DNA from: Candidatus Iainarchaeum sp.
GTDB lineage: Archaea > Iainarchaeota > Iainarchaeia > JAADDC01
Assembly (NCBI GenBank): GCA_030445695.1
Contig: JASUTF010000005.1
Span: 1-38,169, forward strand
Length of the DNA stretch: 38,169 nt
Direction of reading: 5' to 3'
In this document: one piece after another, positions 26,543 through 29,262 of the stretch
How the letters are laid out: each line of letters begins with the position of its first letter
Numbering within the stretch: the first letter of the stretch is position 1
The notes under the pieces: model-generated
Database searches by the model: none
What the model was told of the DNA's origin: nothing
Seen by the model: the letters and a program-made list of their open reading frames with translations, nothing else
Translations under genes and position numbers: made by a program

Positions 26543-27223
26543 CTACCAGTCGAGAATGGATCGCTGGTTCTTCCTCTCAACCAACCGCTTCGCGGTGCTC
26601 CACGACTTCCTCACAAAGTCCGGATACTTCCCGTTCTCCTTCAGAATCCGCTCCAACTGCTTTATCGTCTTCTCATCGTGCGGGTAGCCCGTCCCGAACT
26701 CCCCCCACTCCTCCTCGATCTTCCTTATCTCCCTGTCGCGCTCTACCTTCGCTATGATGCTCGCCGCCGACACGATTGGATATTTAGCGTCCGCCCTGTG
26801 CTCCGCCACGATCTTGGGCGGGTTCTCCAGGTACTTTGCGATTCTCCACACGTATTTTCTCGGGTCGGGATCAGGGGCGTCAATATACACGACGTCCGGC
26901 CGCTTCTTTGCCAGCGTGATCATCTGCGCCGTCTTCATTGCCTCCAGTTCGTTCAAACCCTTTCTCTCCACAAAGACGTCGATCTCCGCCGGGGAGATTT
27001 TCATAACAACGAGGTCGTCCAGCATTTTCTTTATCTCCGGGTAGAGTTCCTCCCTCTTTTCCGGCGTGAGTTCCTTGGAGTCCCGCACGTGCAGTTCCCT
27101 TAGCTCCGGCAGCTTTTCCTCTTCTATAACCGCCAGCACCATGACCATGGGCCCGATGACCGGCCCCCTTCCCGCCTCGTCCACTCCTCCGATCAGCACA
27201 AAAGGAGTTCCCCCGATGTTCAT
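26543..27223 (-). CDS. rnhB: Ribonuclease HII
   Basis: RNase HII removes ribonucleotides and RNA primers from DNA. The 226-residue protein has the catalytic Asp-Glu pair in GGVDEAGRGPVIGPMV (Asp14, Glu15), VRDSKELTPEKRE, a third acidic residue in VVYIDAPDPDPRKY, and the AEHRADAKYPIVSAASIIAKVERDR segment with the fourth. Archaeal proteins have the same length. I start at the ATG at 27223 (MNIGGTPF), which lies inside one of two 16-bp direct repeats that flank the neighbouring toxin-antitoxin genes. The relE stop codon is only 11 nt upstream. Confidence 0.93.
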   Translation of the reverse strand: MNIGGTPFVLIGGVDEAGRGPVIGPMVMVLAVIEEEKLPELRELHVRDSKELTPEKREELYPEIKKMLDDLVVMKISPAEIDVFVERKGLNELEAMKTAQMITLAKKRPDVVYIDAPDPDPRKYVWRIAKYLENPPKIVAEHRADAKYPIVSAASIIAKVERDREIRKIEEEWGEFGTGYPHDEKTIKQLERILKENGKYPDFVRKSWSTAKRLVERKNQRSILDW

Positions 27224-27232
27224 AAATAGGTG
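27217..27232. repeat. Direct repeat, left copy, flanking the toxin-antitoxin cassette
   Basis: tgttcataaataggtg is identical to 27733-27748. The left copy contains the rnhB start codon on the minus strand. The two copies enclose the relE-antitoxin genes. Confidence 0.85.
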
Positions 27233-27233
27233 A

Positions 27234-27509
27234 CTATTCGTATACGTTCTCCCGCTTTGCAATGTTGTAAACGAGTAGCACCCTGTTTTCCCAATCTACT
27301 CTAAAAATCACACGCCACTTTCCTACACGCAGGCGATAGAATCCAGCCCATTTCCCTTTCAACTTCTTAATATCCAAATCCGTGGGTGTGCCTCTCTGAA
27401 TGCTTTCAACCAACACCTTGATGCCGTCGAGGATGCGATGTTTGTCCCTTTCCTGGAGTTTTGTCACCACTGCTTTTGCCTTTCTGTGGAAAAGAACACG
27501 CCAGCTCAC
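27234..27509 (-). CDS. relE: RelE/ParE-family toxin
   Basis: The 91-residue protein has the RelE fold pattern: MSWRVLFHRKAKAVVTKLQERDKHRILDGIKVL, then DIKKLKGKWAGFYRLRVGKWRVIFRVDWENRVLLVYNIAKRENVYE. Family members cut mRNA on the ribosome or poison gyrase. The basic residues in YRLRVGKWRVIF match the usual active-site strand. It overlaps the upstream antitoxin gene by 4 nt, the normal order. The pair is bounded by 16-bp direct repeats. Confidence 0.88.
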   Translation of the reverse strand: MSWRVLFHRKAKAVVTKLQERDKHRILDGIKVLVESIQRGTPTDLDIKKLKGKWAGFYRLRVGKWRVIFRVDWENRVLLVYNIAKRENVYE

Positions 27510-27715
27510 AGCTTTGCCTCCTCGAACTTGTCGTCATAGTCCTCTGGACTTCCAATCTGCTCTTCAATCTCGCGCATCTCTTCGTCCGTCACGTACGGTT
27601 TCAACTCTAACAGAAATCGCGCCAACTCTTCTCTAACTACTGCACGGACTTCCTTTTTGACTTCTTCTACGATTGCAGCGTCAGTTGCCATGTACAAATT
27701 GGGTTGTTTCAGCAT
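27506..27715 (-). CDS. Antitoxin partner of RelE
   Basis: The 69-residue acidic helical protein (AAIVEEVKKEVRAVVREELARFLLELKPYVTDEEMREIEEQIGSPEDY) resembles archaeal RelB-like antitoxins that wrap around RelE. It has no obvious DNA-binding N-terminus beyond a short helix. I start at the ATG at 27715, because the TATA-like cctatttatg, part of the right direct repeat, lies 26 nt upstream. The ATG at 27691 (MATDAAIV) is an alternative. It is directly coupled to relE. Confidence 0.8.
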   Translation of the reverse strand: MLKQPNLYMATDAAIVEEVKKEVRAVVREELARFLLELKPYVTDEEMREIEEQIGSPEDYDDKFEEAKL

Positions 27716-27732
27716 AAAAACGCTTCACCGGT

Positions 27733-27748
27733 TGTTCATAAATAGGTG
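27733..27748. repeat. Direct repeat, right copy, flanking the toxin-antitoxin cassette
   Basis: The same 16 bp as at 27217-27232. On the minus strand it supplies a TATA element for the antitoxin gene. On the plus strand its ggtg lies just before the TTG start of the RumA-type gene. Confidence 0.85.
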
Positions 27749-27753
27749 GTTCC

Positions 27754-28989
27754 TTGCAGCTCCACATCGAACGTTTGGACGACGAGGGTCTCGGCGTTTC
27801 TGGAAGGTATAGAGTACCGTACACACTGCCCGGTGAGGTTGTTGAGCCCGTCCGAACCTTCCGCAAGAAGCGTTTCATCTACGTCCCCGAGTTCCGCCTC
27901 GTCTCACCATCTCCTGACCGCGTCCCTGCAAAGTGCCCGCATTACGGCGTCTGTGGCGGCTGCCGTCTCCAACACATGTCGTATAAAGACCAAGTCCGCT
28001 TCAAGGAGGAAAAACTTGAGCGAATCCTTGGCTTCTCCGTATCCGTCACCCCTTCTCCCGTCATCTTTGGCCATCGCAACCGCATAGACGTTGTCATCAC
28101 TCCTGACGGCATCGGCTTCCGCCAGTTCGGCTCCTGGTGGCGTGTCTTCGATTTGGAGGACTGCCCCGTCTTCGGCCCCCGTGCCGGCGAAGCTGTTTCA
28201 TCCCTCCGCGAATACATGGACGACCACAAACTCCAGCCCTACAACCTGAAGACGCACGAGGGCTTTCTCCGCTACATCGTCCTGCGAGAGGGCAAGAACA
28301 CCGGGGAGTTCATGATTAACCTCGTTACAACTGAAGGAGGGCTGCCGGACCCGACGCCCTACTTCTCTGCCGACTCCATCTACCATTCAGTCAACAACAC
28401 ACTCTCCGACGTCTCCCACGGTGAACCAATCCGCTTCTGGGGCGCTGAATACATAAAAGAGCGGTTAAAGGAGGTTCTTTACCTTATTCACCCCAACTCC
28501 TTCTTCCAGACGAACACATACCAGGCAGAAACCCTTGTAACCCTTGTGGCGGACCACGTTGATGGCGAAACCGTTCTGGACCTCTACTCCGGCGTCGGAA
28601 CCTTCTCCATCTTCCTCGCCAAGCGCGGCTTCACCGTCTCCGGAATAGAAATCAACCCATTCTCCGTGGATCTGGCCCGCAAGAACGCAGAACTGAACGG
28701 CGTCTCTGCGGACTTCACTGTTGGAAAGGATTCAGACGTCTCCGACTTCAAAGAATACGACACCGTCATCGTCGACCCTCCCCGCGCCGGTCTGCACCCC
28801 AAACTGGCAAAACGCCTCGCCGAATCCGGTCCAGAAACACTCATCTACGTCTCCTGCAACCCGAAAACCTACAAACGCGATTTAGAAACCCTTTCGAACT
28901 CCTACCGCCTCGAAACAGTTACCGGCGTGGATATGTTCCCCCACACGCCCCACGTGGAGCTGTTTTCTGTGCTACGTAGACGCAGCTAG
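27754..28989 (+). CDS. RumA/TrmA-type (uracil-5-)-methyltransferase
   Basis: The 411-residue SAM-dependent enzyme makes m5U in RNA. An N-terminal TRAM domain (residues 1-60) precedes a 4Fe-4S site (Cys61, Cys67, Cys70 in CPHYGVCGGC, and Cys near residue 134 in DLEDCPVF). The methyltransferase domain has VLDLYSGVGTFSIFLAKRG, VDPPRAGLHPKL and the nucleophile Cys in YVSCNPKTYKRDL. In Thermococcales, RumA-like enzymes of this type methylate U54 of tRNA or U747-equivalent 23S rRNA, so the substrate here is open. The start is a TTG at 27754 with GGTGG 5 nt upstream. Confidence 0.92.
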   Translation: MQLHIERLDDEGLGVSGRYRVPYTLPGEVVEPVRTFRKKRFIYVPEFRLVSPSPDRVPAKCPHYGVCGGCRLQHMSYKDQVRFKEEKLERILGFSVSVTPSPVIFGHRNRIDVVITPDGIGFRQFGSWWRVFDLEDCPVFGPRAGEAVSSLREYMDDHKLQPYNLKTHEGFLRYIVLREGKNTGEFMINLVTTEGGLPDPTPYFSADSIYHSVNNTLSDVSHGEPIRFWGAEYIKERLKEVLYLIHPNSFFQTNTYQAETLVTLVADHVDGETVLDLYSGVGTFSIFLAKRGFTVSGIEINPFSVDLARKNAELNGVSADFTVGKDSDVSDFKEYDTVIVDPPRAGLHPKLAKRLAESGPETLIYVSCNPKTYKRDLETLSNSYRLETVTGVDMFPHTPHVELFSVLRRRS

Positions 28990-29262
28990 GTCGCCCTTCG
29001 CGATGCTAAGCAGCTTCCAAAAAGTGTTCTGGCTCGCATTCGGCCCAAGCTTGACCGGGCAAAGGAGAATCCACACGATTATTTTGTTCCGCTCGTAAAT
29101 CTGCCGTACTACAAGCTTCGCGTGGGCGATTATAGAGTAATCGCAGTCCTTGACGAGGATAATTCCATTATCCGCGTTCTGATGATCAGCCATCGCAAGA
29201 AAATTTACAAACGCCTCTCATCGATACTATTGAAACAATCACCGGCGCTTCATCGCAGCTGA
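28990..29262 (+). pseudogene. RelE/ParE-type toxin remnant without a start codon
   Basis: The same reading frame as rumA continues after its TAG and stays open to a TGA at 29260. It encodes a clear RelE/ParE domain: LRDAKQLPKSVLARIRPKLD, then PYYKLRVGDYRVIAVLDEDN and VLMISHRKKIYKRL. The only ATG or GTG codons in frame (for example GTG in LRVGDY) fall inside the domain, and no antitoxin lies alongside. The N-terminal strand expected in the family is missing, replaced by the end of rumA. It is most likely a toxin gene that lost its start and antitoxin. Confidence 0.75.

Follow-up and report, generated by a model that had tools for sequence, protein, structure and literature searches.

The question of how solitary chromosomal toxin-antitoxin (TA) genes spread in the absence of a transposon is raised here by a cassette on a 38,169-nucleotide stretch of DNA from Candidatus Iainarchaeum sp., a vent archaeon with a small genome (contig JASUTF010000005.1 of assembly GCA_030445695.1; hereafter the window), in which a RelE/ParE-family toxin gene and an antitoxin gene lie between rnhB, encoding RNase HII, and rumA, a gene for a RumA/TrmA-type RNA methyltransferase. 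An earlier note, made from the letters of the window alone, had described perfect 16-bp direct repeats around the pair and proposed a recent insertion with duplication at the junction and without any transposase. We examined the locus in the source genome (G000), in its congeners (G001, G002, and G003), and in other genomes of the same archaeal class. With a probability of about 0.8, we conclude that an insert consisting of the two-gene relE/parE-type operon alone entered the promoter and start region of rnhB and that about 40 bp of the target was duplicated, with one copy left on each side. This reading starts from the observed boundaries of the unit and the duplication around it, and it draws on a single-copy empty site and on many further TA loci of the class that share the architecture but have unrelated repeats.

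The 16-mer TGTTCATAAATAGGTG occurs in the window in two exact copies, as previously described, and a search of the whole 664-kb source genome returned these two alone, so the sequence is not a common promoter, the possibility on which the insertion proposal had been said to fail. When up to 3 mismatches were allowed, 3 matches were found in the window versus 0.17 expected by chance; at up to 2 mismatches, there was one additional site genome-wide, on contig 28. The repeat is longer than had been claimed: the 16-mers are the cores of a 40-bp direct repeat whose copies are 80% identical. On the minus strand, each copy runs from CACCTATTTATGAACA through a 14-nt leader and TTT to a start codon, GTG 27199 for rnhB and ATG 27715 for the antitoxin, both 18 nt from the 16-mer. 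The rnhB product of the congeners starts at the residue corresponding to GTG 27199 (VLIGG), and that of G001 begins MVLIGG. We accordingly take the 16-mer to be most plausibly the rnhB promoter, resembling a B recognition element (BRE) and TATA box, and the ATG within it, previously taken as the rnhB start, is most likely unused. Since the repeat appears to comprise the promoter and start region of rnhB, the antitoxin would now be served by a promoter copy, in keeping with the proposal that the right-hand copy supplies its TATA element.

Only the two TA open reading frames (ORFs) lie between the repeats. The toxin scores above the curated cut-offs of both PF05016 (34.2 bits; cut-off 23) and TIGR02385 (35.1 bits; cut-off 27.9), and its stop codon ends 1 bp ahead of the rnhB-proximal repeat. 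No transposase or mobility gene was found within the 476-bp unit and no inverted repeats at its ends (27233/27708). The description of the cassette as a small self-contained mobile unit thus holds for its minimal two-gene makeup, while nothing in the unit encodes mobility. Its supposed recency fares worse. The two leader parts agree at just 7/14 positions, the core is identical, and the core before rnhB is kept across species (16/16 in G002 and 15/16 in G003), which argues that the identity of the 16-mers reflects promoter constraint and not youth. A diverged cassette at the same site in G003 likewise speaks against a recent event.

In G002, the interval between rumA and rnhB is about 40 bp long and contains no cassette and a single 16-mer, the empty site that, according to the earlier note, would support insertion if found in a relative. 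Its rumA-side sequence matches the flank of the rumA-proximal copy and its rnhB-side sequence matches the flank of the rnhB-proximal copy, which is exactly what target duplication predicts. In G003, the corresponding position is occupied by a related cassette, whose antitoxin and toxin are 70% and 46% identical, respectively, to those of G000, and 15/16 of the core is present on the rnhB side only.

The same architecture recurs elsewhere in the class. To score a locus, we matched the DNA preceding the toxin gene, comprising the antitoxin and what lies upstream of it, against the DNA immediately following the toxin gene and took the best local match. The threshold, a score of at least 17, was picked from the controls after a first set had been seen; a second set was then evaluated with the same threshold and geometry. 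In the first set, 11 of 29 evaluable relE loci reached the threshold, as did 9 of 62 PF05016 loci in the second. Together, 20/91 relE/parE loci are bracketed by direct repeats, compared with at most 1/917 controls (Fisher p ~3e-21), the controls being 600 random intervals (99th percentile, 16; maximum, 17), 292 ORF-anchored intervals (maximum, 15), and 25 rnhB genes (maximum, 12.5). The repeats are 17-126 bp long and differ in sequence at nearly every site, whereas the geometry is uniform: the unit measures 432-609 bp in all 20 loci, and the start of the right repeat lies at -5 to +33 bp relative to the toxin stop codon. Eleven further relE matches were scored separately, and the one above threshold lies next to a related antitoxin start; these stand outside the 91, except for G002:C45 and G003:C18, which recur in the second set through the Pfam model and are both negative. 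At VapC (PIN) loci, 3/29 reached the threshold, one through a duplicated vapB and one through low-complexity sequence; this is seemingly a weaker pattern than at relE loci, but not significantly so. Most of the assemblies are drafts, so repeats may have been misassembled, although the same junctions recur in separate genomes (G029/G045 and G029/G030).

Homologs of the cassette have repeats of their own. The antitoxin is conserved beside homologous toxins in four other loci (five in all), and homologous cassettes are bracketed by 25 bp of identical sequence at G009:C4, by ~39 bp at G002:C51, and by ~45 bp at G000:C25. The same 16-mer, for which the earlier note proposed a genome-wide search beside other relE genes, was not found at any of them; a repeat peculiar to each site is what target duplication leads one to expect.

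Empty sites exist at other loci as well. The G002:C51 unit lies between kaiC and trm5, and the same interval in G001 has one copy of a 40-bp segment. Before fen1, a unit is present in G029 and G045; G030 has one fen1 promoter segment and no unit, and the unit is also absent from G018, G022, and G025. Because the outgroups lack it, gain is the simpler direction at fen1. At ftsZ, the RelBE unit of G029 and G030 is bracketed by two copies of a 25-28-bp segment, of which G058 has one copy, next to the gene, and no RelBE. The bracketing of TA units by local repeats suggests that such TA genes insert by target-site duplication without carrying a transposase. As a separate observation, the toxin gene of the kaiC-trm5 cassette (G002:C51:14532-14990) has a broken reading frame and the trm5-side repeat differs by one base insertion, which suggests that this cassette decayed after insertion.

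Some sites hold more than one module. Before ftsZ in G045, a HicBA-like pair with a broken antitoxin frame lies between two copies of the 25-28-bp segment, while the same HicA is represented in G029 by its end, directly upstream of the RelBE unit; HicBA-like and RelBE units thus hold the same site in different species. On the reverse strand of G037:C119, copies of one ~45-bp promoter-like sequence stand ahead of each of three TA modules whose antitoxins are unrelated, and at G001:C38:1-2800 a row of RelE and VapBC modules is parted by a repeated linker containing AGYATAAAAAGGTGAAGGGTTAA. The names HicBA and VapBC come from reading the translations and from PIN matches, and HicBA is a putative assignment. 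The AGYATAAAAAGGTGAAGGGTTAA motif also brackets the G000:C25 cassette, and both G001:C38 and G000:C25 are near a similar radical-SAM gene. Rows made up of unrelated modules cannot have arisen by tandem duplication, but a single target used repeatedly can explain them.

Several observations weigh against insertion by target duplication, at this locus or as the rule. No left repeat is recognizable in G003, where the left flank was rejected as a decayed copy, its similarity to the left copy of G000 not being significant (p 0.11). In the RumA tree, filled G000 is sister to empty G002 (support, 0.97) and filled G003 falls outside, so that gain at the rnhB locus is not proved: the data fit both a single filling followed by secondary loss in G002 and two separate fillings of the site. 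Across the class, 71/91 relE/parE loci have no repeat above threshold, and thus old duplications decay or other routes exist. The 20 positive loci include orthologous pairs and represent ~16 independent sites, among which two are weaker cases: G034:C51, where the bracketing repeat resembles a tRNA 3' end and an integrase-type site could be involved, and G001:C38, a cluster with related neighboring antitoxin promoters. Finally, unrelated modules reuse exactly the same repeat, which is more site specific than random break repair predicts.

The strongest rival, to which we give slightly less than even odds, holds that the unit is old at this site: its insertion would predate the genus, the repeats would mainly serve loss, and G002 would have been emptied secondarily by recombination between the copies. 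The topology ((G000,G002),G003) with both G000 and G003 filled fits this history, as do the divergence of the leader part of the repeat and the shared end point of the two cassettes before the rnhB repeat (TAG+1 and TAG+2). However, the G000 and G003 toxins, at 46% identity, are no closer to each other than either is to that of G002:C51, and G003 lacks a clear left repeat, so that two insertions are possible. An old insertion is, moreover, in no conflict with target duplication as the origin of the repeats.

The reuse of single repeats raises a different explanation, namely, that the local repeat is an attachment-like site through which a site-specific or homology-directed system moves TA cassettes in and out, in the manner of an integron-like array. 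Such a system would be expected to line up unrelated modules behind a single repeat, as seen with HicBA, RelBE, and others at ftsZ, G037:C119, and G001:C38. The units, however, contain no recombinase gene, and there is no common recombination site, since almost every locus has a different repeat, which originates in the local target (a promoter, a gene end, or a tRNA end). We consider this explanation improbable.

Chance or convergent similarity of BRE/TATA-like elements at equal distances from start codons is less probable still. The identical core does look like a promoter, and the 18-nt offset is the same for both start codons, but the 16-mer has no third exact copy in the genome, the likeness spans 40 bp, the rumA-proximal copy also matches the flank of the empty site, and controls almost never attain the threshold. 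Type II antitoxins commonly bind their own promoters, and the repeats might on that basis be antitoxin-bound operators recruited before the neighboring gene for co-regulation; we rank this last, since the sequence precedes rnhB in cassette-free G002 and homologous antitoxins elsewhere are bracketed by unrelated repeats. Among mobile elements, a DNA transposon or miniature inverted-repeat transposable element is contradicted by the lack of terminal inverted repeats and by a duplication length that is variable rather than short and fixed, and an integron cassette array by repeats that are unrelated between loci and share no attC-like site. RNA-mediated (retro) insertion is not favored because a transcript would not include the TATA-like element that some units (G002:C51 and G029:C36) seem to have of their own within the repeats.

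Insertion with target duplication could proceed as follows. The DNA would enter at a staggered break with long overhangs; alternatively, a comparable illegitimate event, by end joining or template switching, would bring it in and duplicate the target. Neither neighbor would be damaged, because each side keeps a target copy: the rnhB-proximal copy would keep rnhB expressed, and the other would drive the antitoxin-toxin operon. As the duplicated stretch often holds a promoter or a gene end, both neighbors would stay intact and a promoter would be available to the cassette. Retention would follow if loss of the addiction module is selected against, and the long direct repeats would later permit precise loss. 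At some sites, the same target would be used repeatedly and a series of TA modules built up.

Restriction-modification genes reportedly insert with long target duplication (Nobusato et al. 2000, Gene 259:99, and Furuta et al. 2010, as cited in PMC3874152, PMC3031569, and PMC1643837). The likeness to our loci extends to addiction-type genes, the lack of a mobile element, long and variable duplications, and recognition by comparison of filled and empty genomes. Three of its hallmarks (flanking repeats, a single copy at the empty site, and length and sequence that vary between insertions) are present here; as to a fourth, gain as the direction of change at the locus, the RumA tree also allows loss in G002. 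The duplications are given as ~100 bp in PMC3874152, compared with 17-126 bp at the archaeal TA loci. The cargo differs, being an archaeal type II TA operon of ~0.5 kb; the duplications here often carry the neighbor's promoter, and sites can hold several unrelated modules. In Microcystis aeruginosa PCC 7806, a ParDE-like TA module is flanked by two identical 152-bp direct repeats (PMC7935541). That module, too, is a RelE/ParE-superfamily pair bracketed by direct repeats, but it is a single bacterial case, its repeats enclose inverted repeats and are set 147 and 120 bp away from the genes, and the accessible text reports no empty site or target origin. TA gene cassettes of integrons are likewise small and able to line up in series; they share an attC-like site, whereas the repeats described here differ at nearly every target and derive from it. 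Searches of the open-access literature, with incomplete coverage, turned up no account of such a pattern around archaeal TA genes. Insertion with long target duplication is thus known for restriction-modification genes, and what appears to be new is its extension to archaeal TA genes.

The features of the locus are collected in Table 1. The toxin matches the Pyrococcus horikoshii toxin PHS013 (PDB 1wmi; E 2.7e-5) and RelE3 (PDB 3bpq; E 2.9e-4). It thus shares its family with archaeal RelBE, whereas the antitoxin has no recognizable family or solved relative: no Pfam or NCBIfam family scored above cut-off, and the PDB yielded at best unrelated proteins with weak E-values. By toxin superfamily and by the small antitoxin upstream in the same operon, the pair fits a type II RelBE/ParDE system, with toxicity and neutralization predicted. 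Alignment with the G003 antitoxin suggests that the original start was the internal ATG 27691 and that the first 8 codons are junction derived. The RumA-type methyltransferase is ~56-61% identical to Thermococcus proteins, and no close homolog was seen beside rnhB in more distant relatives; the gene may have been exchanged with Thermococcales. It is bordered by TA genes on both sides, the second being the toxin remnant at 28999, which has no antitoxin and no proper N terminus or start, is 39% identical to the first toxin over 36 amino acids (aa), and showed no flanking repeat when checked for one.

Table 1. Features of the rnhB-rumA region, in window coordinates
Feature	Coordinates	Strand	Remarks
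rnhB (RNase HII)	26543-27199	-	Target gene with duplicated promoter; PF01351, 159 bits; start GTG 27199 assigned from congeners
rnhB-proximal copy of 40-bp repeat	27193-27232 (core 27217-27232)	-	Probable rnhB promoter (BRE/TATA-like CACCTATTTATGAACA) and start-codon region
RelE/ParE-family toxin, 91 aa	27234-27509	-	Overlaps antitoxin stop codon
Inserted unit between repeats, 476 bp	27233-27708	-	Two TA ORFs only; absent from G002
Antitoxin, 69 aa	27506-27715	-	ORF upstream of toxin in same operon; 70% identical to G003 antitoxin
rumA-proximal copy of 40-bp repeat	27709-27748 (core 27733-27748)	-	Predicted to supply antitoxin TATA element; same 18-nt offset
RumA/TrmA-type uracil-C5 RNA methyltransferase	27754-28989	+	Other flank; PF05958, TIGR00479; adjoins rnhB at G002 empty site
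Orphan remnant of second, different RelE/ParE toxin	28999-29208 (within 28987-29262)	+	Downstream of rumA; PF05016, 31.4 bits

A broader proposal, which we hold to be as probable as its opposite, is that archaeal TA operons are transposase-free mobile units that (i) insert with long target duplication, preferably at the promoters or gene ends of housekeeping genes (rnhB, fen1, ftsZ, and trm5); (ii) take over the duplicated host promoter; and (iii) through reuse of the local repeat, come to stand as unrelated modules in series, which would offer a general route for the spread of solitary TA genes and the growth of TA islands. The signature is countable, consisting of repeats that hug two ORFs and a single copy at the empty site, and the proposal is thereby testable across genomes. 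It would place TA genes alongside restriction-modification genes, for which this mode of insertion has been proposed, and it would show how an insertion may spare both neighbors while gaining a promoter and, at some sites, lead to a TA island.
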